Shown in pieces: positions 1-31,100 of a stretch of 35,776 nt of DNA (the first letter of the stretch is position 1; the number at the start of each line of letters is the position of its first letter). Source of the stretch: a virus. Position numbers and translations under genes: made by a program. Under the pieces are notes generated by a model. It was not told the DNA's origin. It saw nothing but the letters and a program-made list of their open reading frames with translations, and did not search any database. The stretch spans positions 1 through 35,776 of the IMG/VR virus record IMGVR_UViG_3300007276_000130. The stretch is one strand, 5' to 3'.

Positions 1-33
1 CTTCTGGCGGCATTCAGAGCCAGCCTGTCCTAA
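1..33 (+). CDS. C-terminal end of an upstream gene (partial)
   Basis: Reading from base 1 gives LLAAFRASLS followed by TAA at 31-33, ten bases before a terminator hairpin. The position makes it likely that a + strand gene ends here, but ten residues cannot identify a product. The other two forward frames stay open through the terminator, which is why this frame was preferred. The call is inference from position only. Confidence 0.3.
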   Translation, partial: LLAAFRASLS

Positions 34-168: not shown

Positions 169-190
169 AAGTTATAGGCTCCTATAACTT
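169..190. promoter_or_regulatory. Palindromic site copy 1 (operator-like)
   Basis: A 22-bp near-perfect palindrome: AAGTTATAGG, centre CT, CCTATAACTT. It is the first of four copies of the core GTTATAGG-NN-CCTATAAC in the left 2.9 kb. This copy has no gene start close by and lies just before the iteron cluster. Two-fold symmetry with a 2-bp centre suits a dimeric DNA-binding protein. Its centre is the complement of the centre at copy 2. Confidence 0.7.
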
Positions 191-200
191 TCCCATTCTG

Positions 201-366
201 TAATGTTACGTTTGTTACGTAATGTTCCCCTAATGTTACGTTTTTGAGAGGCAAAACGTAACATTATCCTCGTTGTATCTAATGGTATCTGAGACTAGCT
301 AGGATTACTGCACTATAGAAAAAAGACTATATTTATATATTTATCTATAATGTTACGTTTTTGAGA
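201..366. repeat. Iteron-like repeats with a 14-bp inverted repeat, left cluster
   Basis: The 10-mer TAATGTTACG occurs at 201-210, 231-240 and 348-357, and its complement at 257-266. The copies at 231 and 348 extend to an identical 19-mer, TAATGTTACGTTTTTGAGA. Copies 231-244 and 253-266 form a perfect 14-bp inverted repeat around an 8-base centre. A degenerate copy lies at 427-436. An AT-rich stretch (328-352) sits inside the cluster. Repeated 10-mers beside AT-rich DNA are typical of iteron origins or multi-site operators; which applies here is not proven. Confidence 0.7.
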
Positions 367-530
367 AAATGTGTATACGGGGTAGATCGAGAGGGTCTAC
401 TTGTAGAAAATCTCGTTACACAGAACTAATGTTACCTTTCCCACACACTCGCACGCTGACCCTCTCAATTCCCCCAAAAACGCAATAATGCAACATTGCT
501 TATTTATCAAACACTTACCGGCCCATAGGA

Positions 531-560
531 CGTAACATTGCGTAACATTACGTAACATTA
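531..560. repeat. Three tandem 10-bp iterons, right cluster
   Basis: Three back-to-back copies of CGTAACATTR at 531-540, 541-550 and 551-560, in the opposite orientation to most copies of the left cluster. One helical-turn spacing would place bound protein monomers on the same face of the DNA. The cluster ends 36 bases before the -35 box of the promoter at 597, so a bound protein could also affect transcription. Confidence 0.75.
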
Positions 561-596
561 CACTTCCTACCACTTGACACCACCAAACCACATTCC

Positions 597-625
597 TTGA
601 CATAACACGTTATATAGGCGATAAT
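597..625 (+). promoter_or_regulatory. Sigma70-type promoter
   Basis: TTGACA at 597-602, a 17-base spacer and GATAAT at 620-625. This is a perfect -35 box, optimal spacing and a -10 box with one mismatch. Transcription would start near 632 and give a leader of about 115 nt that carries palindrome copy 2 before the first gene at 748. It implies that host RNA polymerase reads the early genes. Confidence 0.75.
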
Positions 626-699
626 ATGTCTTGTTGGTCAGGGAAGGAGAATTTTGTGTTACACAGAACTCTCTACACACACCGGGCCGGCGACCACGT

Positions 700-721
700 A
701 AGTTATAGGAGCCTATAACTT
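700..721. promoter_or_regulatory. Palindromic site copy 2 (operator-like)
   Basis: AAGTTATAGG, centre AG, CCTATAACTT. It lies in the leader downstream of the promoter at 597-625 and ends 26 bases before the ATG at 748. It could be a roadblock operator on DNA, or in RNA a hairpin of 7 bp with a 4-nt loop close to the ribosome binding site. Confidence 0.75.
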
Positions 722-747
722 TCACAGCAACGAAACGGAGAACAACA

Positions 748-1131
748 ATGCGTAAGGTAGGAAAAGAAATAGTCGGTGCGTTCATCAAGGGCGAGACCAA
801 ATCAATGGCTAACACCGAGTCCGTGTTCAACCACGCCACCCGCAACCTTGACCTGTTACTGCACGGCAACCGCATTGCCACCATGTCGAATCAAGATGGG
901 GTAAAGAAGTTATGGGTGTCCTGTGGCGGATACGAGAAGGATGTGAACGGGCGTAAGGTACTAGCACCGTCGCGCACCACGCAGTCCCGACTCAATGCGC
1001 TGTTCCGTCTGCTCGACATGCCCGAGCGTGTGTACATCAAGGGCGGCGTTCAGTATCTCGACTGCCGACGCCACGGCACCGTCAACCTCATGGCACTACG
1101 CAAGAGCGCGGTGCTCGTATCAGTTCACTAA
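748..1131 (+). CDS. Hypothetical early phage protein (127 aa)
   Basis: First gene after the control region. ATG at 748 has a CGGAG ribosome binding site seven bases upstream. The product is small and basic; residues about 68-115 (RKVLAPSRTTQSRLNALFRL and the following YIKGGVQYLDC stretch) look like a compact alpha/beta fold. No family was recognised. Its place directly behind the promoter and an operator-like palindrome suggests immediate-early expression and a regulatory or host-takeover role, which is inference from position only. Confidence 0.75.
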   Translation: MRKVGKEIVGAFIKGETKSMANTESVFNHATRNLDLLLHGNRIATMSNQDGVKKLWVSCGGYEKDVNGRKVLAPSRTTQSRLNALFRLLDMPERVYIKGGVQYLDCRRHGTVNLMALRKSAVLVSVH

Positions 1132-1137
1132 CCCAAA

Positions 1138-1155
1138 GTTATAGGAACCTATAAC
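1138..1155. promoter_or_regulatory. Palindromic site copy 3 (operator-like)
   Basis: GTTATAGG, centre AA, CCTATAAC, placed between the stop at 1131 and the ATG at 1178 and ending 22 bases before that start. The surrounding 26 bases are identical to those around copy 4, so the conserved element reaches beyond the palindrome on both sides (CAA before, AAAC after). No separate promoter with good boxes is visible here, which leaves an RNA-level role open. Confidence 0.75.
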
Positions 1156-1177
1156 AAACCAACAAAGAGAACTTCAC

Positions 1178-1792
1178 ATGAAAATGAAAGATCTTATTGA
1201 TTCTGTACAACAGGTCGATCCAAACATCTGGGGCAACCCAGAGAAGCCGCAGCTAGAGAACATGCCGACTATCATCTTTGACATCGACGGCACACTGGCT
1301 GACATCGAACATCGGCGGCACTTTGTCACCGGCAAGAAAAAGGACTTTGATGCCTTCAATGCAGCGATGGTCAACGACACGCCCAACCAGCCGATAGTAA
1401 GCCTACTGTGGATGAGTCTGAGTCGTTTCGATCCGACCCAAGTTATCTTTTGCACCGGACGCATGGAACAGTTCCGCGAGGTTACCCGTAACTTCTTATT
1501 AGATGGCTGTGAGGTGGAAGAATTCCTGAGTCTGGTGATGGATGACAAGCTCCGCAGCGAACCCAAGTACCGTCGAATGGTCGAGGATCATCTGGATACC
1601 TACCTGATGATGCGTCCTGACAACCGTAGGCATGACCCTGACAAAGACATCAAACAGGACATGCTCAACGAGATACTGAAAACCGTGGACAAGAGCAACA
1701 TCTTGTTTGCAGTAGATGACCGCCAGCGTGTGGTCGATATGTGGCGATCCAACGGCATAACCTGTTTGCAGGTAGCCGAAGGCAACTTTTAA
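1178..1792 (+). CDS. Polynucleotide kinase 3'-phosphatase-type HAD phosphatase
   Basis: 204 aa. Residues 31-200 match the phosphatase half of T4-type polynucleotide kinase: the catalytic motif FDIDGTLAD with D35 and D37, FCTGR with T93 and R95, the MMRPDNRRHD stretch followed by K159, and a DDRQRVVDMWR motif with D180 and D181. In the family this domain removes 3'-phosphates from nucleic acid ends so that they can be ligated or extended. There is no P-loop kinase domain, so this is a stand-alone 3'-phosphatase, and no ligase lies in the window. Start at 1178 follows an AAGAGA box; a second ATG two codons on (1184) is possible. The substrate (DNA or RNA) cannot be told from sequence. Confidence 0.85.
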   Translation: MKMKDLIDSVQQVDPNIWGNPEKPQLENMPTIIFDIDGTLADIEHRRHFVTGKKKDFDAFNAAMVNDTPNQPIVSLLWMSLSRFDPTQVIFCTGRMEQFREVTRNFLLDGCEVEEFLSLVMDDKLRSEPKYRRMVEDHLDTYLMMRPDNRRHDPDKDIKQDMLNEILKTVDKSNILFAVDDRQRVVDMWRSNGITCLQVAEGNF

Positions 1793-1818
1793 CCAAAACC
1801 AACGATAAGGAGTTCCAC

Positions 1819-2751
1819 ATGGAACAAGCAAACAACATCCACCAACTGGCCCAAGGCCCAACCGTAAACGCACCCAGCATCAGTTCATCTTCTGTGCTGG
1901 TCGAGCTAAGGATCTCAACGTGGACTGCGCGTAAGCTCGACAAGTCAGCATCGCGTAAGGTCGCAGCGGATAACGGCGCGTCAGCCAAGGCCGGTAACTA
2001 CAACAAGAACCTGCTCGCCGGTTGTACTGAACTGGAAGACCTAAAGAAGTTTGTAGGTAACGCACGCAACACCCACTACGCAATGACCCTGCCGTGGTCT
2101 GACATGGGGCTACGTCTGGTGCCGACATCTCAATACTTCGACTACCAGAACACCATGACAGATCTGGAGCAAGAGTTCCGCCGGTTGTACCAACTGTTCG
2201 AGGATGCGTACCAGTGGCGTACATCCACCGCGATGGCAGAACTAGGTAACATGTTTAGTCACGATGACTACCCGCCGGTTGACGAGCTGCGTAGAAAGTT
2301 CGGATGGAATCTGGCTGTTCAACCACTGCCCGAGGCCGGTGACTTCCGACTCGACATACCCAACGAACAGCAAGAAGTTCTCAAGCAACAGTATGACTCG
2401 TTCTACCGTGGGGCTATCGAGTCTGCGATGGATGACATCTGGGCGCGGTTACACAAGAACCTAGAGACTGTGCTGCGTCAGCTATCCCCGAAAGATGAGC
2501 TAGATGCCAAGGGTAATCAGAAATATAACAAGTTATACGATAGCGTCTTCGACACGTCGCTGGAGCTGATACGTATGATGCGTGACTTCAACCTGACTGG
2601 TGACACCCAGATGACTGCGATTGCAGACCAGCTAGAGGATGCGCTGTACGGCGTGAACACCGATGCGCTCAAGAACAGCGAGACGCTACGTCTGGACAAA
2701 CAGCAGCAGGTCAAAGACATCATCAGCAAACTACCGTCCTTGGATCTGTAA
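1819..2751 (+). CDS. Helical protein, DUF3150-like, partner of the AAA/VWA pair
   Basis: ATG at 1819 was chosen because AAGGAG lies six bases upstream; the open frame begins earlier but would overlap the previous gene. The 310-aa product is mostly helical, with a central stretch about residues 90-230 (MTLPWSDMGLRLVP, then helices with EFRRLYQLFEDAYQW, then FGWNL). This arrangement recalls DUF3150 proteins, which on plasmids and integrative elements sit next to MoxR-type ATPases and CobT/VWA proteins. The same order is seen here. The family call rests on remembered pattern and context and is moderate. Function is unknown; it may be a substrate or adaptor of the ATPase. Confidence 0.65.
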   Translation: MEQANNIHQLAQGPTVNAPSISSSSVLVELRISTWTARKLDKSASRKVAADNGASAKAGNYNKNLLAGCTELEDLKKFVGNARNTHYAMTLPWSDMGLRLVPTSQYFDYQNTMTDLEQEFRRLYQLFEDAYQWRTSTAMAELGNMFSHDDYPPVDELRRKFGWNLAVQPLPEAGDFRLDIPNEQQEVLKQQYDSFYRGAIESAMDDIWARLHKNLETVLRQLSPKDELDAKGNQKYNKLYDSVFDTSLELIRMMRDFNLTGDTQMTAIADQLEDALYGVNTDALKNSETLRLDKQQQVKDIISKLPSLDL

Positions 2752-2772
2752 TCAGATCTCTAGGTTTAACGT

Positions 2773-2813
2773 GGTACGCCCTGTATAATAGTAGGACACA
2801 ACAGGGCGATACC
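2773..2813. promoter_or_regulatory. Inverted repeat enclosing a TATAAT box
   Basis: CGCCCTGT (2777-2784) and ACAGGGCG (2801-2808) form an 8-bp inverted repeat that extends, with one extra base, to GGTA and ATACC on the outside. TATAAT lies at 2784-2789 inside it, but no good -35 box was found at the right distance. It may be a second promoter with an overlapping operator, or only a hairpin between the genes ending at 2751 and starting at 2887. Confidence 0.4.
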
Positions 2814-2845
2814 GCCTACCATCAACCAACGCTAACAACCACAAA

Positions 2846-2863
2846 GTTATAGGAACCTATAAC
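2846..2863. promoter_or_regulatory. Palindromic site copy 4 (operator-like)
   Basis: GTTATAGG, centre AA, CCTATAAC, ending 23 bases before the ATG at 2887 and followed by an AAAGGAG ribosome binding site. With the copies at 700, 1138 and 169 it defines a phage-specific element placed at nearly constant distance from three early gene starts. Confidence 0.75.
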
Positions 2864-13651: not shown

Positions 13652-14062
13652 ATGGCTGATGCAAAAGACGTAGACGGTGTGCCACTAGGCAAGATGACTG
13701 GGGTTTACCTCAAGATTAAGGCTGAACGGGAACGCCTATCTGCGGAATTTAAGGAGGCTGATGACAAGCTAGTCAATCAGCAAAATAAAATAAAGAGTGC
13801 GCTACTGAGTTACTTGAAAGAGAACGACATCAAAAGCGTCAAGACCGATGCTGGTACGTTTTACCGTACGGTTAAGCAGAAGTATTGGACTAGCGATTGG
13901 GAGCACATGCACGAGTTCATTCTTGAGCATGGTGTACCTGAGTTCTTAGATAAGCGCCTGAATCAGAAGAACGTACGGGAGTTCTTGGAAGAGAACCCAG
14001 ACCTTCTGCCAAAGGGCTTGAACGTAGACGCAGAGTTTGCACTCACAATAAGGAAAGCGTGA
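13652..14062 (+). CDS. Coiled-coil plus beta-domain phage protein (136 aa)
   Basis: ATG at 13652 with a GGAAGGA box upstream. Residues 20-60 are a charged coiled coil (KAERERLSAEFKEADDKLVN and on); residues 60-80 (IKSVKTDAGTFYRTVKQKYW) a beta hairpin; the rest ends NPDLLPKGLNVDAEFALTIRKA. The build resembles Gp157/Gam-like phage proteins, which protect DNA ends or resist host nucleases, but the match is by architecture only. It starts a run with the HTH, zinc and SSB genes. Confidence 0.75.
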   Translation: MADAKDVDGVPLGKMTGVYLKIKAERERLSAEFKEADDKLVNQQNKIKSALLSYLKENDIKSVKTDAGTFYRTVKQKYWTSDWEHMHEFILEHGVPEFLDKRLNQKNVREFLEENPDLLPKGLNVDAEFALTIRKA

Positions 14063-14313
14063 TGGAGCAATTAGTTCCGATTGAGGATGTCGCAAAGCAC
14101 TTTGGTGTGTCATTATCCACGACCCGTAAATGGGTGAGGGATGGCGTAATTCCAGAGAATACGTACATCAAGGTAGGTAAAACGCAGCGATTCGCCTTGG
14201 CGAGTATCGCAGAAGCTCTGTTAAAGGGTGGTGCATCTAAGGAAGAAGCAACGGAAGAAGCTGTTGTGGATGACTTTGACCCCACAGCGTTTGATCCTGA
14301 TGCGGACGTATAG
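14062..14313 (+). CDS. Small HTH (excisionase/MerR-like) protein (83 aa)
   Basis: ATG at 14062 overlaps the previous stop (TGATG); an in-frame GTG one codon earlier is also possible. Residues 4-50 form a MerR/excisionase-type winged helix: VPIEDVAKHFGVSLSTTRKW, then RDGVIP and a wing with GKTQRFAL. The tail is very acidic (VVDDFDPTAFDPDADV). A DNA-binding head with an acidic tail suits a small regulator or DNA mimic. No integrase is in the window, so an excisionase role is not supported. It is a candidate to bind the palindromes at the left, though nothing proves it. Confidence 0.75.
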   Translation: MEQLVPIEDVAKHFGVSLSTTRKWVRDGVIPENTYIKVGKTQRFALASIAEALLKGGASKEEATEEAVVDDFDPTAFDPDADV

Positions 14314-18994: not shown

Positions 18995-19038
18995 CCCCCT
19001 TACCGTAACCACCCCTTCTTGCGGTAAGGGGGTTTTTT
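18995..19038 (+). terminator. Strong Rho-independent terminator at the convergent junction
   Basis: A perfect 11-bp stem, CCCCCTTACCG (18995-19005) with CGGTAAGGGGG (19022-19032), has a 16-nt loop and is followed by six T (19033-19038). It ends the + strand replication operon. The stop of the converging - strand gene is at 19037-19039, so that gene ends at the foot of the hairpin. There is no T-run on the - strand side. Confidence 0.9.
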
Positions 19039-22000
19039 ACAAGAACCCTTCACCCGAATCCACCGTACGCTTCATGTATGGCGATAGCGTTGTACCGTTG
19101 TGCATCTCCGCAGAACGAGTCTCGTGCCCACGTATTGACCTATCAATAGTGTCACCTGTTATACGTTTCTGGCGATCTCGGCGCACGGCACTGGACTTGT
19201 TGAACTCTCGCATAGATCGCCGTGCATCACGCATACCTTCTCTGTCACCGAATCTCTTGGCAACGTAGTAACGTCTCAGCAGGTCACGGCGTTTAGCACT
19301 CGCAGCTATGTCTAGGCGTTTAGCTGTAGATGTCTCGTCCGCTTGTCTGGTGTAATCGACGGGCGGAAACCCTAGTAGCTGCGTAGCCAAATCACCGGCT
19401 GTGAGATCATCGTAGATAGGATCACCGCGCCGAGTCAGAATGCCCTCATCCCTCGGGTACCTGATAACAGCTTTATAAGCATTACGTACAGCGCCCGGCA
19501 TTAGGTCTTCTATACCACGCTCTATCTCGCCTTCACGTAGTTTGTCTATGCCATCTCTACCTCGTGAGTAGATGCTCCATGCAGGGCCACCAAACAGGTG
19601 AGCAATCTCTTCTTCTGGCGATGGATCACTGTTGAATCTGTCGGCTTCAAATAGCAGGTCGGTCAGCTTAACGCGCTGCGATACATCAACCCCAGTTATT
19701 TCAGACAGAGCGCCCTTGAATAGCACTTCACTGTCTAGGTACTGCCGTAGCATGGTGTCGGTGTCTTCTTCGTAGTCTTCTCTAAACATGTCAATAAGCA
19801 TGGAGACTGCACCGTACAACGGTAGACCCTGTACCCCAGCGAAGAACAGAGCAGATAAATGTACACCGGCAAGCTGTTTCAGAGCCTCATTACGTAGCTC
19901 TCTGCTCTTAGCGTCATTGCCCGGAAAAAAGTTCTCTATAGCTTGTCTACCAGACTTAAACATCGTGTAGTACATCTGTATGCCGTACGCTTTATACATC
20001 AGCGCAATACGACCTAAACTCTCACGGGCGTACCGTGGGCCAGTTTCTAGTGTGGCACCACCGTTGATTAGCTGCGTCTCACGTACAGCTTCTTCTGCGG
20101 CTTTCTTCTTGTCACCATCAAACTTCTTTAGTGCGAGTTTATACGCTGCCACCATCGTAACTTGACGATTCATTACTTCTGCTTCATGGAACATAAGAGC
20201 CGAAGCGTTTGTCACCGCGTCCATCTTAGACATCTTACGCCCCGCCTGACTCGTGCTGAGTGTGTCGGCAATGAACGACGAGTTAAGCTGCCCCCGCCTA
20301 GAAGCAAGCTCCATCAACGGTAGAAGGTCTTTCAATTCCTTTGTTTGCGCTGCATCGAGGTCTAGGTCTTTACGTACTTCGTAAGTGACTCGGCCATCTT
20401 TGTCGCGGGAGAACGTATAGTAGTTATCCAGCGATGGTAATGCCTTGTCTTTGAGGGCTTCTCTCGCTGCGTTGAGGTCACCTTTACGTAGCGCTTCTCT
20501 TACAGACCGTGGCGTTCTTGCGTCCCCGACTAAAGTAGCTATGTCCTTGTTCATTGGAGAACCCATAAACAACTTAGTAGCACCGCTTAGAGCGGTTCGT
20601 GTGGCTCCGAACCCATACTTACCTGCCAGCATCGGGTATGCGAACAACGGTATCTGCGACAAGTTTACCAGCGCAGACGAGGCGTTGAAGCCGATAGTCC
20701 ACATGAATGCCATACGGTTTGCGTTCTTAGCGAAACTGTCCAGTGGCGGATTGACGGCAAATCTAGCGCGGTCTTTTACCTCTTCGATTTCTGGGCTGTT
20801 CGCATCTGCCATTTTAGGGTTGGCTTCAAGCATCTCTTGTACGGCGTTGTCGATTAGCCGTGAGTTCTTAATGCGCTCTACCTGCCGTGCCAGATCAAAA
20901 GCCTTCGTACGTGCCGCTTCCACAGCATCTACATCATAACCTTCAGTGCCCTTACGTCGAAGCAGTGACTTAGCGAAAGAAGACTCTGGCAGGTACTCAA
21001 TAAACAAACGTGTTATCTGTTCCTGAACCTCTGGGTCTACTTTGTTCACCTTCATAATGCCCAGTATGCTGGAGACAAAAGAACCAGAGGGCGCGTCCTC
21101 GTAGGAGGCTTTGTCACTAGGGCTGAACGTCGATACTCCGTAACCTTCTGCTTCGTAGGCTTCCGCTGCCCTGAACCGTTCCGCAGCGTTCTCGTATGCA
21201 AACACGGCAGAGTCCGCGCCTTCCTTGGGGTTCTTCACAGACAGGAAGTACGTGCCGGTACGAGTCAGCGGGAAGTATGGCTCCAGCTTAGTCGCCTCTA
21301 ACATCTTAGCGTATAGACCGTTCTTGAGGTTGGTCTTCGCTTGTTCTGCTATGGGCAGTCCGTCAATACGATTTTGCAGCGTGTCATTAAGTTGGTCGTA
21401 CTGATCTTTATATAGCTTACGCAAAGCGGCGTAGTTCTTCCTACCCTCGGCACCAACCATCTTGCTGTTGTAGACCGCCCGTAGTTCTTTGTAGCGGTCT
21501 ATTTTTAGCTGCTTAGTGCCGTCTACGGGCTGGTTGCCGTACCGTTTTTGTGCTTGCTGTGGCGTTAGCTCTGGATCTACTTGGTCAACGGTACTGTCGT
21601 AGATCAAGTTATTCCACGCCTTAATCGTTTCTCCAGACTGTTTAGCAGCCCACTCTCGTATAGGTTGTAGGTTGTTTCTGACCGCTTGCTCTGCGGTAGT
21701 TAGGCCACCACGTTGGTTTTCTATAGCAGCGAAAACCTTATTAACACCGACTACACCTGCCCTTTCAAGCTCTACTTCGACGGCGTTGTTAGGTAAGAGA
21801 CCAAGTATTTTGCGTTTTAGTCCGGTGTTTTTCTGCCCTGCTGTGAGTGCACCGTACTCGCCAACTATTCTTTCTTTTGCACGCTCTATCGGCCCTTTAG
21901 GTAGGGCGTCCTTGAGTCCTTCCTCTACTCTACGTACGCCAGCAGGGTCGGTCATAGATGCTAAGAGAGGAGCACCACGGTGCTTGGCGGCAGGTGCCAG

Positions 22001-24826
22001 TATGTCTTCAATTAACTGTTGGGCTTCACGCTGTGCAGTACCACGTTCTTTGCCCAGCCCGAGGAAGTTAGATACCACGCGGATAAATTCTTGCCAGACA
22101 CTAAGCGGCCTACCGTCTGGGTTGATTCGAGCTAGCTCACCTTGGAAGGTGGGGTTAGTAAAGGCTTCAGCGACAAACTCTGCTACGTTCTTAGACCCAT
22201 AAGAGTTACGTAGGTACTCTTTGCTAGCCTCATGCAGCTTTATCAGCTTCTTAGTAGTCGGGTGTGACGGGTTCTTCAGAGTGCTAATCGTTGCAGCGTG
22301 CGCCATCTCGTGCAGTAGGACATACACATCTGTGTAGTCTTTATTCAGTACGATTGTGTTGTCTGCGGTTATGAACCGTCCGTCAACCTGTTTACCGTCT
22401 ACTGTACCCAACTGGCTTGGGGGCACGGTCATTATCTTGGTGTCACCAGTGAGTTTAGCCAGACGGCCAGCTACTCGCTTGATGAACTTATCGTCTGACT
22501 TGTTAGATAGCTCTAGTAAGGCTCGACGTAGTTCGTTGTTACGTACCGCACGTTTTACAGTGTCAGGCAGTGAAGCATCCAACACCTCGGTGTAGTCTCT
22601 TGGAGGTGCGTTGAGGACTTGTTCGGATGCGACACGCATAGCGTCTGCTTTACTGAGACCTTCTTCTTTTACGAGCCTGTCTCTTTCTGCACGACGTTCA
22701 GCTAAAAGACTTTGCTTGTCGGCAGTTTTTTCCTCTGGGGCACGTAGATCTACGTCCGCCGTAGGCTCTTCTACAGTAGGTTCTGCCGGGGCGGGTGTAG
22801 GTTCCTTCGTCAAAACCTCTTTTACGGTAGCTGGTGTGGCTGCGGCAGTGGCGGACATAGCCCGCTCTGCACGGCGTTGGGCGTCCACAGTCTCTTGAGG
22901 TATGACTTGCGTATCTACATCGGCAAGCTGTTCGTTGGCTTTTATACCTTCTTCAGTAACTTTCTGTAGCTTCTTCTCAGCACGAGCCAACTTACGTTGG
23001 TTAGCCTGCGTTGGTTTTACTGTTGCAGCTTCTTCGGCTTTAGCTACTTCAGTTCGGGCTGCGTTAGCCTTGGCTACTGCCGAAGTAACCTTTCGGGCTA
23101 GTGCACCACGCTGTTTTCTCGTTCCAGAAACAGGTCGTCCAACGCCTCTTCCAGCATCTCCCACTGGTTCTCCGACAAGTGCAGCAGGTTCCACGGTATC
23201 CGCACGTCTTGTAGGGACTCCCACGCCTCGTAGATCAGCTTCATCGCCTGTTCTACTTCTTGCTGCGACAGGTTCTCTTTTGCGCGGGGTAGGTAGATCA
23301 CGTTGCTCACTAGGTACTCCTTCTAGCAATCGGGTAACGCCACGTCGAACCTTTTGAGATTTTAGACGGTTAGCTTCGTTAGTTAGCTCAACCCGGACTT
23401 CTGGGTCATCTAAGTCTTTACCTATAACACGTCTGCGTATAGCAGCATTCGGCGCAAACCCAGCGGTAGTGAGGTCTTCTTCTGTGACAGGACGCGATTC
23501 GGGTGTTGGTTCTGCTTCTGGCGCTACTGCGGCTCCTTCTGCTACAGCAAGTTCAGTCGGAAATAGGTCAGGCTGTTCTCGTTGAGCAATCTCAGCACGT
23601 TCTCTACCTGTCCGCGCTTCGTCAGATACTGGCTCTTCAGTGATCTGTTGTTCTCTATCACGTAAGTTGGTTCGGTCTAAGGCTTCTTGTCTACCTAACA
23701 CATCGCCTTCAGGCGTTACAGCTAACGTCTCACCAGCAATAGTTTCACCTTCTGGTGCAGGTAGACCTCGCAACTGTGGCCCAACACGTTCTGGCTCTAG
23801 CCCCGGCAGTGATATTTGGTCAGGGCTTACTTCGGCTGTACGTTCTTCCTCAAACAGCCTGTCTCGTTCTTCCTGATCTATGTCGTCTATGACTTCATCT
23901 ATCTCAGGAGTACGCTCCTCTGCGTCGTCAAACAGTTCAAGTTGCCCTTCGGCTTCAGCTTCTTCAACAGCATCACCAATGGTCTTACCGGCTCTGCGTG
24001 GGGCGAACAGGTCAACAAGACCCTGTAAAATAGCACCGGCTCCAGCGCCTAATGCAGCTTCTTCTGCGGTACCGCCAAACGTCTCAGCAGCAGCGTTGTA
24101 TTCTTGCTCGTTAAGATTTTGCAGTATGTTGGATGCAGCTTCCTGTGCACCCTCAAACCCACCTGTCACACCCGCGCTGTAGATACGTTCGCCAATGGTT
24201 TCGACCTTCTCAGGCGGTATCTTGTCAACTAGCTTGTTTAGCGTAGGTAGATCAGCGAACTTAACTACTTTTGCAACGGGGAGTATGTCTAGCAAACCGA
24301 TTACTGTGCCCCGTACGGTGGCTTCACCACGTTTTTGCTCTGTAGTATCAGCGGCACGAGCACGCTCACTCGCCTCACCAGCACCGGCAGCACCGGCAGC
24401 TAACGCACCAAGACCCAAAGCCGCAGCACCGGGGGCACCAGCTATACCAGCGGCAACAGGTATAGAAGCAAGGCCAGCAACGGAACCAAGCGCGGAGCTT
24501 AGTTTGTAGGTAATAGATTCTGAGTCACCGCCTTCGGGACGGAAAGACTCCGCAATAGACTGAATACGCTCGCGTGCAGCTAGTTCGCTTTCTTCTTCCA
24601 GTGGCGCAGCGAGACCGAGTGCAGCCATCTCACCTACACCGACAACACCCGCACCGAATCCAGAGGTAATGTCCTCGAATATGCCGGTTTCTCGTGGTGC
24701 GCTGGTAGGGAGAGGGGTAGTACGCCCTACTAAAACACCCCTTAGCGCGTCTACAGCTTCTGTATCCCCAGCAGCTAGAGCGTTGCGGTACGCCCGATAA
24801 ACTTTCTCTCTTGGTACTACTGGCAT
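19037..24826 (-). CDS. Giant polyvalent-type virion protein with HEMAH metallopeptidase motif (1929 aa)
   Basis: Order of parts: helical start (YRAYRNALAAGDTEAVDALRG); Ala/Gly-rich, membrane-like segments about residues 100-155; an acidic, Pro-rich linker to about 780; a gluzincin-type motif HEMAH (839-843) with E883/E887 in EFVAEAF as third-ligand candidates; a long helical region; hydrophobic segments (FMWTIGFNASSALVNLSQIP and on; HLSALFFAGVQGLPLYGAVS); and a basic C terminus. This resembles phage large polyvalent or internal virion proteins that are packed in the head and injected with the DNA. The peptidase could act on head proteins or the host envelope. ATG at 24826 has only a weak ribosome binding site. 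Another gene is nested at 23098-23310. Confidence 0.88.
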   Translation of the reverse strand: MPVVPREKVYRAYRNALAAGDTEAVDALRGVLVGRTTPLPTSAPRETGIFEDITSGFGAGVVGVGEMAALGLAAPLEEESELAARERIQSIAESFRPEGGDSESITYKLSSALGSVAGLASIPVAAGIAGAPGAAALGLGALAAGAAGAGEASERARAADTTEQKRGEATVRGTVIGLLDILPVAKVVKFADLPTLNKLVDKIPPEKVETIGERIYSAGVTGGFEGAQEAASNILQNLNEQEYNAAAETFGGTAEEAALGAGAGAILQGLVDLFAPRRAGKTIGDAVEEAEAEGQLELFDDAEERTPEIDEVIDDIDQEERDRLFEEERTAEVSPDQISLPGLEPERVGPQLRGLPAPEGETIAGETLAVTPEGDVLGRQEALDRTNLRDREQQITEEPVSDEARTGRERAEIAQREQPDLFPTELAVAEGAAVAPEAEPTPESRPVTEEDLTTAGFAPNAAIRRRVIGKDLDDPEVRVELTNEANRLKSQKVRRGVTRLLEGVPSEQRDLPTPRKREPVAARSRTGDEADLRGVGVPTRRADTVEPAALVGEPVGDAGRGVGRPVSGTRKQRGALARKVTSAVAKANAARTEVAKAEEAATVKPTQANQRKLARAEKKLQKVTEEGIKANEQLADVDTQVIPQETVDAQRRAERAMSATAAATPATVKEVLTKEPTPAPAEPTVEEPTADVDLRAPEEKTADKQSLLAERRAERDRLVKEEGLSKADAMRVASEQVLNAPPRDYTEVLDASLPDTVKRAVRNNELRRALLELSNKSDDKFIKRVAGRLAKLTGDTKIMTVPPSQLGTVDGKQVDGRFITADNTIVLNKDYTDVYVLLHEMAHAATISTLKNPSHPTTKKLIKLHEASKEYLRNSYGSKNVAEFVAEAFTNPTFQGELARINPDGRPLSVWQEFIRVVSNFLGLGKERGTAQREAQQLIEDILAPAAKHRGAPLLASMTDPAGVRRVEEGLKDALPKGPIERAKERIVGEYGALTAGQKNTGLKRKILGLLPNNAVEVELERAGVVGVNKVFAAIENQRGGLTTAEQAVRNNLQPIREWAAKQSGETIKAWNNLIYDSTVDQVDPELTPQQAQKRYGNQPVDGTKQLKIDRYKELRAVYNSKMVGAEGRKNYAALRKLYKDQYDQLNDTLQNRIDGLPIAEQAKTNLKNGLYAKMLEATKLEPYFPLTRTGTYFLSVKNPKEGADSAVFAYENAAERFRAAEAYEAEGYGVSTFSPSDKASYEDAPSGSFVSSILGIMKVNKVDPEVQEQITRLFIEYLPESSFAKSLLRRKGTEGYDVDAVEAARTKAFDLARQVERIKNSRLIDNAVQEMLEANPKMADANSPEIEEVKDRARFAVNPPLDSFAKNANRMAFMWTIGFNASSALVNLSQIPLFAYPMLAGKYGFGATRTALSGATKLFMGSPMNKDIATLVGDARTPRSVREALRKGDLNAAREALKDKALPSLDNYYTFSRDKDGRVTYEVRKDLDLDAAQTKELKDLLPLMELASRRGQLNSSFIADTLSTSQAGRKMSKMDAVTNASALMFHEAEVMNRQVTMVAAYKLALKKFDGDKKKAAEEAVRETQLINGGATLETGPRYARESLGRIALMYKAYGIQMYYTMFKSGRQAIENFFPGNDAKSRELRNEALKQLAGVHLSALFFAGVQGLPLYGAVSMLIDMFREDYEEDTDTMLRQYLDSEVLFKGALSEITGVDVSQRVKLTDLLFEADRFNSDPSPEEEIAHLFGGPAWSIYSRGRDGIDKLREGEIERGIEDLMPGAVRNAYKAVIRYPRDEGILTRRGDPIYDDLTAGDLATQLLGFPPVDYTRQADETSTAKRLDIAASAKRRDLLRRYYVAKRFGDREGMRDARRSMREFNKSSAVRRDRQKRITGDTIDRSIRGHETRSAEMHNGTTLSPYMKRTVDSGEGFL
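23098..23310 (-). CDS. Nested gene in an alternative frame of the giant virion gene (70 aa)
   Basis: GTG at 23310 is preceded on the - strand by AGAAGGAG, six bases before the start, which is the best ribosome binding site in the - strand half. The product begins MSNVIYLPRAKENLSQQ, is acidic and amphipathic-helical (LSENQWEMLEEALDDLFLER) and reads as real protein. Over the same bases the host gene encodes a low-complexity linker (about residues 506-577, RKREPVAARSRTGDEADLRG and on). The codon phase differs by one. So this looks like overprinting, or a small gene kept inside a lengthened one. No family name is known to me. Confidence 0.78.
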   Translation of the reverse strand: MSNVIYLPRAKENLSQQEVEQAMKLIYEAWESLQDVRIPWNLLHLSENQWEMLEEALDDLFLERENSVVH

Positions 24827-24832
24827 ACGGAC

Positions 24833-26608
24833 TTACTGTGCATACCTATCTACAAGGGCTGTTAAATCAGGATTCACGTCTATGCCGCTTGGAGTTTCGT
24901 TACCACTACCACTTATTGCACCTATACGCCTCTGAAGGAACTCTTCAAAGTCGTTTATGTTCCCTTTTTCTAGCATTTGATGGAATTGAACAGTCATGGT
25001 TTCAAGCCTTTTTATAGCAGCAGTAACCTCCTCCGGACTATCGGCCATATCAAACCCAGCATCGCCCATAATCTCTTTCTCCATTTCCCTCTTCCCCTGC
25101 AAGAACTCAACCGCTAGCTGCGTGTAAGCCAGTTCTTTATCCTCTGCTCGTTCCGCTGCGGCACGGCGGTCTTCCATCTGGCTCAAGAACAGTTCGAGCT
25201 TAGTCTTAGCTCCCTGTATGTCGGCATCAAACTTACGATCACCTTCAGCAATAGCCATCTTCACGTCATCCGCTGCGGCACTTTGAACTGCGGCAACAGC
25301 GGCTCGCTGGTCTTTACCCAGAAGCTCAACGGCATCCTGACCCGATTGGATCTGAGAACCTGCTATATCCAGATCAAGCTGAATTTTCTCATTTTCAATA
25401 CCAAACTGATCCGTCAAGTTTTTACGTGCAGCGGCTTCTTGCTGGGTACGCTGATTAAATACGCCTGCGCCGAATCCAGCTAGGGTAGTGCTACCTCGAC
25501 CCGCAGCACCCAGAAGACCCGCTGTAAGGCGCTCTCTACGTAACTTATCAGGGTCTGTTTGTTGCGCTTGTAGGTCTTGCATACGCTGTAGTTGAGACTC
25601 TTTCGGCCCTAACTTACCTTCTTCTCTACCGATAGCGGCTTCAAGAATACCCTTGGTACGGGCTTCAGCGGCTTCTCTAGCTTCTTCACGAGTCCCTTCG
25701 GGTTTGACGCCCATCTCACTCATAAGAGTTCGCGCTATATCCTGACGCTCCGTGCCTACAACAGTAGGTGGAGGTGTAGGTGGAGCTAACCCTAGAGCTT
25801 CAAGACCTTGCCCTTTCGTAGCATCGGGTTCAACTTTGGGGAGTTGGGGAGCTAGTACACCCATACCGCCCATATCAGGTATTGTGCGTTCAGTAGGTGC
25901 CGCAGATGGCTCTGTTTTTGGGGGGCCACCTAACGCTGCTGTAGGGTCGTACTCTTTTGCAAACTGACGTTGCGCTCGACGCGATTCGGCTCCGGGCGCT
26001 TTACCCGCTAACGCTTGTGTTCTAGCAGCAGATTTGGCTTCTTGCGCTCTGACTTTGAGGATGTCTTCTTTAGCCATCTCCCTGTTTCTGGGGTTATCTA
26101 ATTGGTTGAACCGAGCAAGATACTCCCTAATCTCTTCCTCAGATACCGCAGATATTGGCCCTTTACTGCCTTCTTGGAATGCAACAATACCGCCACCAGC
26201 CATCATAGCGGGCTTTTGTGGGGCGTTTGCGGGGGGTCTTTGTGGGCCACCTATAGAGGGTAAACCTTGCTTGGCAGTGCGCTGTACGTTCTGCTGCGCT
26301 CTTTTGTTGATCTGCCCTAGCGTACCGGCAGTGCGCTGTGCAACGTCGCCTAGCTTTCGGCCTTGCTCTTGCTTAATCATGCCAAGCACTTCTTGCTCAC
26401 GCTGCTGTGCAATCGTGGCAGGGTTCTGCTGCATCTGCATCTGCATGTTACGGGCAGCGGCTTCTTTCTCTGTTTTAAGCTGCTGTAGCGCAAGAAGGTC
26501 AACTAATTGCTGACTCTTTTGGTACTGCTGCTGTAGTGCCTGTGGGTTGCCTTGGTACGCTTCTTTCTTACGCTGTACCTGCTCGCCCAAACCTCGTGAA
26601 TTAAGCAT
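24833..26608 (-). CDS. Gln-rich coiled-coil virion-type protein (591 aa)
   Basis: ATG at 26608 overlaps the previous stop by one base, and the stop is six bases before the start of the 1929-aa gene. Residues 1-110 are Gln-rich helix (QALQQQYQKSQQLVDLLALQ and on). A GGGIVAFQEG motif (138-147), often seen in marine phage virion proteins, follows. Residues about 150-320 are Pro-rich and acidic. The rest is a long charged helix with Ala-rich segments. It has no enzyme motif and probably is an internal or tail-associated structural protein. Confidence 0.75.
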   Translation of the reverse strand: MLNSRGLGEQVQRKKEAYQGNPQALQQQYQKSQQLVDLLALQQLKTEKEAAARNMQMQMQQNPATIAQQREQEVLGMIKQEQGRKLGDVAQRTAGTLGQINKRAQQNVQRTAKQGLPSIGGPQRPPANAPQKPAMMAGGGIVAFQEGSKGPISAVSEEEIREYLARFNQLDNPRNREMAKEDILKVRAQEAKSAARTQALAGKAPGAESRRAQRQFAKEYDPTAALGGPPKTEPSAAPTERTIPDMGGMGVLAPQLPKVEPDATKGQGLEALGLAPPTPPPTVVGTERQDIARTLMSEMGVKPEGTREEAREAAEARTKGILEAAIGREEGKLGPKESQLQRMQDLQAQQTDPDKLRRERLTAGLLGAAGRGSTTLAGFGAGVFNQRTQQEAAARKNLTDQFGIENEKIQLDLDIAGSQIQSGQDAVELLGKDQRAAVAAVQSAAADDVKMAIAEGDRKFDADIQGAKTKLELFLSQMEDRRAAAERAEDKELAYTQLAVEFLQGKREMEKEIMGDAGFDMADSPEEVTAAIKRLETMTVQFHQMLEKGNINDFEEFLQRRIGAISGSGNETPSGIDVNPDLTALVDRYAQ

Positions 26609-27516
26609 TAAGAGACTCCTGTACCTTGTAGTACACCGTCTACGTACGTGTTTCCTTGAGCATCTGTGAATGCTCCTGTGTTGGGTATTATGGGTGGAGT
26701 TCCACCACCGCCGCCACCGCCGCCACCGCCACCACCAAACAGATTAAGAAGTTCACTGACACCCCCCGCACTGCCCAGCATGGTAGATAGTGTACTGGGC
26801 TGAGAGTAACTGTAGGTTTGCGCTGCAATCGGCAATCCTTGTAGCAGCGACTGCTGGAACTGAACCTGCTTATAAGGGTAATCACGTTCTTCACGGAACT
26901 GCGCGTAGTCTTGCGCTATGCCTTCTTGTTCAATAGCACGTTGTTCAGCCCCGCCAACACGTTGAGCACCTAGCGCCTCTAATCCATACCCTCTATCACG
27001 AGCGAACTGCTCCCGACCTTGTTGATACGCTTGCGAGTAACCTGTTCCACGGATATTTGCTAAGTTCTCTAGTAGCGCACGGTTACCCTCTGCTTCTACT
27101 AAACCTAAACGAGATCCGCCGAAAGCTCCGGCCTGCTGCATCCTAGCAGCGTTAGCCAACCGCACACGATCCGCTTCACGCTGTGCCGCCTGTAGCTGAG
27201 GCTGAAGAGCTGCTTCTGTATAAGGGTTCATATACTGTTGAGCAGTAGCAGCATCAAATGTAGCGGGGGTGGTGGGTACAGCTAGGCTAGCTAGTCCTGT
27301 AAACGCCTGTTGCTGTACGTCAGATGCTCCAGCAGACAACGGCCCCATGTAGGACTGGTAAGGTTGTTCCGAAAGAGCTTGCCCTCTACCCAGCATTTCT
27401 GTGACATAGGGGCCAGCAAACTCCGCAAGTGCACCTGATCTACCTACTTCTTGACCTACATTCGGATCTGCGGGAACAGTTACATCACCACCAGTGTTAT
27501 ATTTATACATAGTCAT
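26608..27516 (-). CDS. Virion-type protein with AGAFGGSR motif and poly-Gly run (302 aa)
   Basis: ATG at 27516 follows an AAAGG box. The central region has YMNPYTE (95-101) and AGAFGGSRLGLVEAEGNRAL (from 129), a combination found in virion proteins of environmental phages. Long helices surround it. Near the C terminus twelve Gly codons in a row (26701-26736) join a last strand-rich piece, NTGAFTDAQGNTYVDGVLQG. Probably a neck, tail or internal structural protein; the exact position in the particle is unknown. Confidence 0.75.
   Translation of the reverse strand: MTMYKYNTGGDVTVPADPNVGQEVGRSGALAEFAGPYVTEMLGRGQALSEQPYQSYMGPLSAGASDVQQQAFTGLASLAVPTTPATFDAATAQQYMNPYTEAALQPQLQAAQREADRVRLANAARMQQAGAFGGSRLGLVEAEGNRALLENLANIRGTGYSQAYQQGREQFARDRGYGLEALGAQRVGGAEQRAIEQEGIAQDYAQFREERDYPYKQVQFQQSLLQGLPIAAQTYSYSQPSTLSTMLGSAGGVSELLNLFGGGGGGGGGGGGTPPIIPNTGAFTDAQGNTYVDGVLQGTGVS
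26701..26736 (-). repeat. Poly-glycine codon run
   Basis: Twelve consecutive Gly codons, using GGT, GGC and GGA in a mixed order. The run acts as a flexible linker in the 302-aa protein. Mixed codons argue against very recent single-codon slippage. Confidence 0.8.
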
Positions 27517-27521
27517 TACCT

Positions 27522-28190
27522 TTATGCAGGTAGCATCTTCTGAGGTTTGATTTGCCTACCCTGTTTCGGGTTACCCGTGCGTTCTTTACGTACTCTGGTC
27601 ATCATTTGGTGTAGCTGATTTGCACCGGCATCGGAGTTACCGTTACCTAGATGGCTCACCACATCCGCAGGTATGACAAACTCCCCATCGCTAAGGCGTG
27701 CTTCTTGTCTACCATCAATAGTAGCTGGAATCTTATCAGCCATACCATCCGTAATACCACCTAAGTAGTACCCTTTGTTCATGCCAATAGCACCGCCAGC
27801 AGCCATTCCAGCTAGCCCTTGCGCTTGTGTTTGGGCTTTTTGCCGTGCTTGCTCTACTGTCATAGACTGACGTTCAGGACGGTCAGCGTACTGAACATCA
27901 CTGAAGTATCTTCTACCAGCAGATCCGGGCCTACGGTTAGGGTCTGCCTGCATAGGTACGCGCTCTCGCACGGCCTCATACTCTGGAATGCTTCCTTGGT
28001 AGCCAACTACAGGCGTTTTAGTGTCCATGATTCCAGTCTTAGTGGCTAAAGCTCCAAGCCCTGCGGTTCCAATAAGACTACCAACATCAGAACGAAAAAA
28101 ATCACCAACGCCCCCTAAAAACGTGTTTTCATTTCCAGTATCGGTAAAAGCACCGGACACGCCAGATGTAAGATCAGTCCACCAGCTCAT
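27522..28190 (-). CDS. Virion-type protein with SDGEFVIPADVV motif (222 aa)
   Basis: ATG at 28190 shares a base with the stop of the giant protein (TAATG). The N-terminal 50 residues are Gly-rich and weakly hydrophobic. The conserved core is YYLGGITDGMADKIPATIDG, then ARLSDGEFVIPADVVSHLG (about 141-182), and the end KQGRQIKPQKMLPA. This core is widespread in virion gene clusters of environmental phages, where its role is not defined. The context among structural genes supports a particle component. Confidence 0.78.
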   Translation of the reverse strand: MSWWTDLTSGVSGAFTDTGNENTFLGGVGDFFRSDVGSLIGTAGLGALATKTGIMDTKTPVVGYQGSIPEYEAVRERVPMQADPNRRPGSAGRRYFSDVQYADRPERQSMTVEQARQKAQTQAQGLAGMAAGGAIGMNKGYYLGGITDGMADKIPATIDGRQEARLSDGEFVIPADVVSHLGNGNSDAGANQLHQMMTRVRKERTGNPKQGRQIKPQKMLPA

Positions 28191-31100
28191 TAGCTTTCTC
28201 CAATAATCCGTAATAGTTCGTCGTTTGCATCAATTATACCTCCACGTTTACGTCCAAACGGCAGTCTAGGCCGTGTAGTCGGTTGAACTGGCCCTCGTTC
28301 GATTGTGCCGTACGGTGTAGGGAACATAGACGCTCTTTGTTGCGGCCCGAATATACTACCAAAATCATACAGATAGTCGATCTGTGCCAAGGGAGATTGA
28401 TCTACTGTAACTTGTTGTCCTGTTATGTCTGCGGCACCCATGATCTGGCCTAACAGATCCCTACGGCGAGCCTGCTCCCCTTCTTGTGCGATTTGAGTCT
28501 GTATTGCCTGCTGCGACTGCATTTGCTGCTGCATCTGCTGCTGTTGCTGTAGCTCTTGCTGCTGTTGCAGTTCCTGTTGCGTCTGAATCTGTTGCTGTTG
28601 TTGCTGCTCCATCTGACGCTGTAGCGCTTGTTGCGTCTGCTGCTGTGCGGCGTATAGGCCCGTAGGAGCGAACATACTGTCAAGGTCAAACAGTACATCT
28701 TGCCCTGTTCTAGCTTGTTGCAGGAGGTCTAGGTCAGCTTGGTCTACTACACCGTCACCTGTTACGTCATAGGCTAGCTGTTCTTGTGTGTACGTAGCAG
28801 GGTCGTTGATCGCTTCTTGCTGTGCGATAAGGTCAGCAACAAAGTCAATATCCGCATCAGTCACCTCAGAAGCAGGCTTACCTACAAGCTCCGCTACCGC
28901 TTCAATTTCGGCAGTCAGTGCACCCTCAGCGCCGCTAATTGCACGCAACAAATCAGCTTCAGTTTCACCGATTGCAGCGCGTAGGGACTCTTCAGACTCT
29001 CCGATACGTGTAAGTAAAGTTTCTTCGGTAACGCCAAGCTCGCTAGCAAGGTCGGATATAGAGGTACGCAGTGCCGTATCTCTGTCGGCACCTGCTTGTT
29101 CAGCTTCGTCAATCTTCGTCAGAAGGGTACGTGTTGTGGCGTCAACATCCCCAGACACATCTTCGATAGCTTTAGCTAATGCTTCATCCCGAGAAAGCCC
29201 TGCTGCCTCGTACTCAGCCATCTTGTCGAGGACGTTTGTTTCAAGGCCAGCTACTTCTCCAGATAGGCTTGTCTGTAAATCAGCTAACTCGCCCTTGAAG
29301 TCTTCTCGTACAGAAAGCTCAGAGTCCGCTATGGCATCTAGTAAGGTTTCTTTTGTTGTACCTAGATCACTAGCAAGCTCGTCAACAGTCTTGGCTAGTG
29401 CTTCATCACGGGACATCCCCGCTGCTTCGTATTCTGCTACTTTATTAAGTAGGGTCGTCTCAAGGTTAGCTACATCCCCAGACACGTCTTCGATAGCTTT
29501 AGTTAGTGCTTCATCACGAGACAACCCTGCTGCTTCGTATTCCGCTATCTTATCAAGGAGGTTTGTTTCAAGGCTGGCTACGTCACCAGATACATCCGCA
29601 ACAGCTCTGGATAGTGCTTCATCACGCGACAACCCTGCTGCTTCGTATTCAGCTACTTTGTTAAGTAGATTTGTCTCAAGGCCAGCTACGTCTCCAGATA
29701 CATCTTCGATAGCTAAAGCTAATGCCTCATCACGGGAAAGCCCCGCTGCTTCGTATTCGGCTATCTTCTCAAGAAGGTTTGTTTCGAGGTTAGCTACATC
29801 CCCAGATAAGCTCGCCTGTAAGTTAGCTAACTCGGTTCCAAAATCTTCTCGTATGGCAAGTTCAGAACCCGCTATCCTGTCTAACAGGCTCTGCTCTGTT
29901 GTACCTAACTCTGCGGATACATCTGCAACGGACTGCGATAGTGCCTCATCCCGAGAAAGTCCCGCCGCCTCGTACCCCGCTATCTTCTCAAGAAGGTTTG
30001 CTTCAAGGTTAGCTACGTCTCCAGCTAGACTTGCCTGTAAATTGTCTATCTCATCCTTGAACTCTTCCCGTATGGCAGTGTCGGAATTCGCTATTCTGTC
30101 TAACAGGTTCTGCTCTGTTGTACCTAGTTCTCCAGATACATCTGCAATAGACCGCGCTAACGCTTCATCGCGGGAAAGTCCTGCACCCTCATACTCGGCC
30201 ATCTTCTCAAGGAGGCTTGTCTCAAGGTTAGATACATCTTCAGATAGAGTTGTTCGTAAGGCAGATAACTCGTTTGTGAAGTCTTCCCGTATGGCGAGAT
30301 CAGAGTCCGTTATCCTATCTAGCAGGTTCTGTTCTGTTGTACCTAACTCTCCAGATACATCTTCGATGGCCTTAGCTAGTGCTTCATCACGAGAGAGTCC
30401 TGCGTTCTCATACTCAGCCATCTTTCCAAGGAGGTTCGCCTCGATGTTGGACATACCTTCGGATAGGTCTGCCTGCAAACTTTCTAGTTCACCCTTGAAG
30501 TCTTCTCGTATGGCAAGATCGGAGTCCGTTATTCTGTCTAACAGGTTTTGCTCTGTTGTACCTAGTTCTCCAGATACGTCCTCAATAGCTTTGGCTAACG
30601 CTTCATCACGAGACAGCCCTGCGTTCTCGTACTCGGCCATTTTCCCAAGGAGGTTCGCCTCAAGGTTGGACATTTCCTCAGATAGATTTGTCTTTAGGGT
30701 AGTCAACTCATTTCTGAAGTCTTCCCGTACGGCAAGTGCAGAGTCCTCTACAACGTCTAACAGGTTTTGCTCTGTTGTGCCTAGCTCTCCCGACACAGCT
30801 TCGATAGCTTGGGCCAGTGCTTCGTCCCGAGAGAGTCCTGCTGCTTCGTATTCAGCTACTCTATCAAGGATGCTTGCCTCAAGATTCGACATATCTCCGA
30901 GTAAACTTGCCTTTAGGCCCGTCAGCTCACCCTTGAAGTCTTCTCGTATAGCAAGTTCGGAATTTGCTATGGTGATTAACAGGTTTTCTTTTGTTGTACC
31001 GAGATCACCGGCAAGGTCGTCAATAGCCTGCGATAATGCCTCATCCCGAGAAAGCCCTGCATTTTCATACTCATTTACTTTATCGAGTATGTTTGCCTCA

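Follow-up and report, generated by a model that had tools for sequence, protein, structure and literature searches.

Repeated palindromes in the early region of podovirus-like phages vary between relatives along with the gene that opens the early operon

Palindromic repeats in described phages and in the window

Mycobacteriophages of Cluster O (e.g., Corndog) carry 17-base pair (bp) palindromic repeats of the sequence TGTTCGG-NNN-CCGAACA (PMC4351075), and a family of sites much like them is present in the DNA analysed here, a stretch of 35,776 nucleotides (nt) from a virus with podovirus-like structural genes (terminase, portal, major head protein) to which we refer as the window (positions 1 to 35,776 of IMG/VR record IMGVR_UViG_3300007276_000130). 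Like the palindromes of the window and its relatives, the Cluster O repeats occur in many copies per genome with fixed arms and a variable centre (3 nt in Cluster O), lie mostly in intergenic regions or near the starts of non-structural genes, and belong to phages that are not obviously temperate (PMC4351075). Their function and binder are unreported and a single arm sequence is used cluster-wide, whereas here close relatives can differ in their arms, which follow a candidate gene. Repeated palindromes of phages have been described before without a known reader, and in the present case natural variation offers a way to one.

In the temperate phages of Cluster A (L5, TipsytheTRex), repressor sites known as stoperators lie in promoters and short intergenic spaces genome-wide, and the diversity of the repressors is linked to superinfection specificity (PMC9283540). 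Here, too, sites occupy leaders past early promoters, the gaps that separate early genes and the first part of some coding sequences, and a further one adjoins the gene of the candidate regulator. However, stoperators lack symmetry, are oriented with transcription and bind a monomer, whereas the sites of the window's family are perfect palindromes, and, unlike in Cluster A, no integrase or resolvase was matched (PF00589, PF00239) in 13 contigs of 33 to 66 kb that are possibly incomplete and in which other lysogeny genes were not searched. A link of repeats to gene starts is also shared with Cluster K, whose start-associated sequences (SAS) and ESAS have inverted repeats and lie in the non-structural half of the genome, the ESAS consensus varying by subcluster. 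The excerpted description (PMC3203893) presents SAS as asymmetric and placed 3 to 7 bp before the start, the ESAS repeats as imperfect and 17 bp each, and in that excerpt no co-varying gene is reported.

We name the site positions P1 (171), P2 (702), P3 (1138) and P4 (2846), with P0 for a position beyond the window's left edge, ahead of the gene that begins the early operon. A pattern search bears out the four-copy palindrome of the initial annotation, with exact GTTATAGG-NN-CCTATAAC copies at 171-188, 702-719, 1138-1155 and 2846-2863; the first two lengthen to perfect palindromes of 22 nt (Table 1), and those at P3 and P4 do have 26 identical bases in common, CAAAGTTATAGGAACCTATAACAAAC. The genome-wide motif count that had been proposed as a check, run at up to 3 mismatches, gave 5 matches in the window against 0.16 expected by chance, a number never reached in 100 shuffles; the sole additional match is weak and lies at 33156-33173 within a late gene encoding 2439 amino acids. 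A near-constant distance to start codons, also claimed at the outset, holds in the window (22 to 26 nt at three sites; no gene lies directly downstream of P1) but is a mere tendency across relatives: among 159 sites there, 79 lie up to 70 nt before a start (mostly 14 to 33 nt), 65 are intergenic with no start nearby, and the remaining 15 are within coding sequence, most of them 18 to 35 nt past the start.

Arm types across relatives and the first early gene

An exact-pattern scan of IMG/VR found about 10 related contigs with 2 to 5 copies each, at matching positions. Relatives retrieved with the ATPase encoded behind P4 (the best 80 of 223) gave 78 upstream regions that could be read, and in about 73 of them a palindrome precedes the ATPase gene, usually with arms other than those of the window. 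Besides GTTATAGG, the arm types include TTTGTGTAT-N5, TTACCGGTCA-N, TGTTATAAC-NN, CATCTCA-N, TGTTAGTG-N3, TTTACGG, TTTAGGG-N4, GTTAGGG, TGTTATGG, GTTAGTC, GTTAGTG and others. Within a genome, one arm sequence recurs 4 to 10 times at corresponding early positions around a variable centre, and in four contigs of 57 to 62 kb, examined in pieces, the sites are confined to the early/replication operon, with none among the structural genes. Different palindromes occur in phages with 98% to 100% identical ATPases, and at P4, P1 and P2 the site is exchanged while its flanks stay conserved. Some genomes are mosaic: the TTTGTGTAT phage G002 (L043) retains a single unswitched GTTATAGG site at P3, with flanks resembling those of GTTATAGG phages, and two TTTACGG sites are present in a phage of the GTTAGTG type. 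The annotated collection holds no near-identical phages, and no comparable repeated-palindrome family was found in HTVC023P, HTVC027P, DSL-LC04 and CRP-902 (first 50 kb each) or CRP-7 (first 15 kb).

In sequence comparisons, the arm type of the palindromes goes with the gene that opens the rightward early operon, i.e., the one behind P0. When G002 is compared gene by gene with GTTATAGG phages, most early and core genes are 80% to 100% identical; the exception in the early region is this first gene, for which identities of 81% to 87% are found in most TTTGTGTAT phages (56% in one) and no match is found in GTTATAGG phages. Loci of three families of the encoded protein (A1, A2 and A3) were searched by protein, without use of the palindrome. 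All 10 loci of the A2 family are on GTTATAGG contigs, a GTTAGTG or GTTAGGG palindrome lies 65 to 196 nt upstream of the gene in 73 of 76 scored A1 loci, and the expected type is present at P0 in 15 of 15 loci of A3, with one contig (L300) being mixed. In four pairs of phages that differ in type despite 98% to 100% identical ATPases, the P0 proteins are at 20% to 22%, which equals background identity. On quick trees, with types taken from the distal sites and P0 left out, GTTATAGG and TTTGTGTAT each form one clade of the long-branched P0 tree (support 99 and 97), whereas the ATPase tree requires 3 and 2 changes, respectively, and the GTTAGTG type needs 2 changes on the P0 tree versus 6 on the ATPase tree. 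About a dozen site types are each paired with a version of one gene in phages that are otherwise nearly identical, and this tie allows direct tests of which protein reads the sites, by what recognition code and in what role.

The window itself begins with the end of such a gene, as the translation of its positions 1-33 finishes in the same way as P0 proteins of the GTTATAGG type in relatives (an example is L036:2497-2988, ...MDLLAAFRASLS); the window's own candidate regulator therefore sits just outside it. P0 proteins comprise 163 to 260 amino acids, are mostly helical and are basic in those measured (isoelectric points of 9.1 to 10). Homology links the A1 family to A2 (hhalign probability 98) but is not detectable between these two and A3. 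A1 and A2 have a motif like RYWQQQIGARRNDFK in common, which in the alignment appears as IGARRNDF in GTTAGTG types versus I-G/S-S-K/R-L/M-KDL in GTTAGGG types, a difference between few lineages that could be part of the recognition code. The C-terminal part is swapped independently of palindrome type. AlphaFold models are helical, with a predicted local distance difference test score of 84 for A2 and 76 for A3. No relatives of P0 proteins were found in 50,697 phage records or in bacterial genomes; three matches to T4-type internal proteins (E-value 0.9) are at chance level.

Candidate readers of the palindromes

It is probable, in our judgement, that the palindromes are operators of a phage-encoded and likely dimeric protein, with the P0 gene product as the best candidate, and that sites and protein switch specificity together. 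The sites are repeated and two-fold symmetric with constant arms, as expected for operators of a dimeric repressor, and a phage-encoded candidate co-varies with them, though by correlation and with the gene of a large polyvalent protein as a second correlate in one clade. The dimeric-repressor half of the initial annotation is therefore the one that gains: the arms are constant within a genome, change jointly between genomes and track one protein. From these patterns we infer binding and dimerisation, DNA rather than RNA as the target, and repression rather than activation as the outcome. The variable N-terminal part of the P0 protein would read the arms, its gene sits next to a site of its own (P0), and the protein would bind the remaining sites, which lie in the leaders and intergenic gaps of the early/replication operon, where it may limit early transcription by blocking initiation or elongation as stoperator-binding repressors do. 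We favour such repression, with activation or a role in replication as alternatives. Protein and sites would shift specificity jointly, partly through recombination, so that phages nearly identical elsewhere would come to have different regulons.

Several observations weigh against this reading. The TTTGTGTAT-type proteins have no detectable homology to the others, and searches of Pfam, PHROG, PDB and BFVD returned neither a significant relative of P0 proteins nor a known DNA-binding family or fold, the structural second look having mostly covered the C-terminal helices. The mixed contig L300, possibly caught mid-transition, has a TTACCGG-type site at P0 and three TGTATGA-N-TCATACA sites elsewhere. 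In the window's clade, the polyvalent gene follows the palindrome type as well, so that P0 is not the sole correlate there. Finally, the centre varies in length (3 to 5 nt in the GTTAGTG type), which is unusual for a rigid dimer site, and the preference for places directly before start codons is unexplained by transcriptional repression alone.

These last two points also speak for an RNA element: the leaders of early mRNAs would form a hairpin shortly before the Shine-Dalgarno sequence, and a nuclease or an RNA-binding protein with sequence specificity would recognise it and so affect translation, processing or stability. One site in two is found no more than 70 nt before a start codon and most of those inside genes soon after it, the window's sites fold as RNA into hairpins of 7 to 9 bp (z of -1.7 to -3.7), and the GTTAGTG centres are orientation-biased, a bias that is not decisive because the leaders are A/C-rich. 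We nevertheless regard an RNA element as unlikely. Alongside 438 perfect sites, singly mutated sites provide 40 mismatched pairs (8 G-U, 3 A-C and 29 neither, with some contexts related), a spectrum within types that is close to random, as without a pairing constraint, and that has no compensatory or G-U signature; arm changes within a genome are not compensated, the centres that would form the loops vary while the arms are fixed, and Rfam gave no match. Moreover, in most relatives a promoter-like sequence follows the P0 site after about 25 to 50 nt, and in 33 of 50 the P0 gene is separated from P1 by a terminator. With no G-U bias and two site positions outside the predicted transcripts, DNA operators are clearly preferred over RNA hairpins, and the RNA half of the initial proposal thus becomes the less likely one.

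That the sites serve another trans-acting factor seems improbable to us, be it a transcription factor of the host or the polyvalent protein delivered by the virion, in which case the type would mirror the host or the ejection module. The polyvalent protein is 79% to 97% identical within GTTATAGG phages and 29% to 32% to TTTGTGTAT phages despite about 80% to 95% in most core genes, and within the window's own clade P0 and the polyvalent gene are not separated as correlates of the arms. Among the GTTAGTG phages, however, this protein does not follow the type (34% between G003 and G005, of the same type, versus 51% between G003 and G007, of different types), which rules it out as the sole specificity factor; P0, which follows the type in both clades, is therefore the better candidate. 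A host factor would leave the linkage to the P0 gene unexplained. As to the helix-turn-helix (HTH_17) protein that had initially been proposed as the binder, its counterpart in a phage of another palindrome type has 92% identity and an unchanged recognition helix, and we reject it as specificity factor because it is nearly invariant across types. As a separate observation, the giant polyvalent/ejection genes on the minus strand of the window (19037-35509; 1929 and 2439 amino acids) fall to about 30% identity between phages with 80% to 95% identical core genes and, judged from these comparisons, form a separately exchanged module.

We consider it highly improbable that the sites are instead hairpin promoters of an N4-like phage RNA polymerase, or that they act in replication, partition or packaging and not in the control of genes. 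Their place about 20 nt before start codons would suit such a role, as would the AT-rich repeat region, a possible origin, that P1 and P2 flank. Yet several sites are preceded by sigma70-like promoters, no RNA polymerase is named among the scanned window proteins (of which the giant ones are poorly annotated), and the sites are scattered across as much as about 15 kb of the early genes, some within coding sequence.

If the palindromes are indeed operators read by the P0 protein, the rapid joint switching of a regulator and all its sites, without detectable integration genes, raises the question of what force selects for it. One tentative answer, which we hold to be possible rather than probable, is that these apparently non-temperate phages have an immunity-like typing, in which DNA-binding regulators of a new family, unlike any known fold, and their 4 to 10 operators would change specificity jointly through recombination, the reason perhaps being that superinfecting phages of the same type are silenced, with the virion-ejected polyvalent protein maybe being co-selected. 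A cultured relative by its capsid protein (70% identical), Planktothrix phage Pag-Yong1 (OL906435.1, L302), has the same arrangement of repeats, with 18 copies of GGTTCA-NNN-TGAACC for which we found no description. About ten of these lie 11 to 28 nt before leftward early genes, many of them at 18 to 28 nt, and single copies precede the ATPase by 82 nt and the gene that opens that operon by 59 nt. The product of this opening gene (UMO76074.1) has no detectable homology to the P0 profiles; if it proves to be the reader, Pag-Yong1 would offer a laboratory system.

Further features of the early region

Coordinates of the sites, the candidate readers and the neighbouring genes are collected in Table 1.

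Table 1. Features of the window, by position.
Feature	Position	Strand	Remarks
3' end of P0 gene (first of the early genes), whose product is the candidate reader of the palindromes	1..33	+	last ten codons, LLAAFRASLS*
Intrinsic terminator-like hairpin with T run, behind P0 gene	43..62	+	from sequence
Site P1	169..190	none	AAGTTATAGGCTCCTATAACTT; equivalent place occupied in relatives
AT-rich non-coding stretch between P1 and P2	201..560	none	direct and inverted copies of TAATGTTACGT; from sequence
Sigma70-like promoter, TTGACA-17-GATAAT	597..625	+	palindrome ATAACACGTTAT in spacer; from sequence
Site P2	700..721	none	AAGTTATAGGAGCCTATAACTT; ATG 748 begins 26 nt on
Early gene behind P2, 127 amino acids	748..1131	+	Kyano_Gp96-like (PF23790), no assigned function; protein family scan
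Site P3	1138..1155	none	GTTATAGGAACCTATAAC; ATG 1178 begins 22 nt on
Early gene behind P3	1178..1792	+	polynucleotide kinase/phosphatase-like; protein family scan
Conserved early gene, 310 amino acids	1819..2751	+	in GTTAGTG-type relatives, site within its first codons (MTQQSNVSAALTN)
-10-like TATAAT upstream of P4	2784..2789	+	in relatives, complete TTGACA-17-TATAAT at equivalent place
Site P4	2846..2863	none	GTTATAGGAACCTATAAC; ATG 2887 begins 23 nt on
AAA+ (MoxR-like) ATPase behind P4	2887..3990	+	anchor for search of relatives; protein family scan
HTH_17 protein, initially proposed binder	14059..14313	+	rejected as specificity factor
Large polyvalent protein (LPD39), 1929 amino acids, late strand	19037..24826	-	follows type in window's clade, not in GTTAGTG-type phages

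The AT-rich stretch with its copies of TAATGTTACGT is a possible origin or control region. A second palindrome, ATAACACGTTAT, occupies the spacer of sigma70-like early promoters, both in the window and at the P0, P2 and P4 promoters of relatives, and is constant across the types of the main palindrome. Main palindromes of the TGTTATAAC type include ATAACACGTTAT, which suggests how new types might originate.

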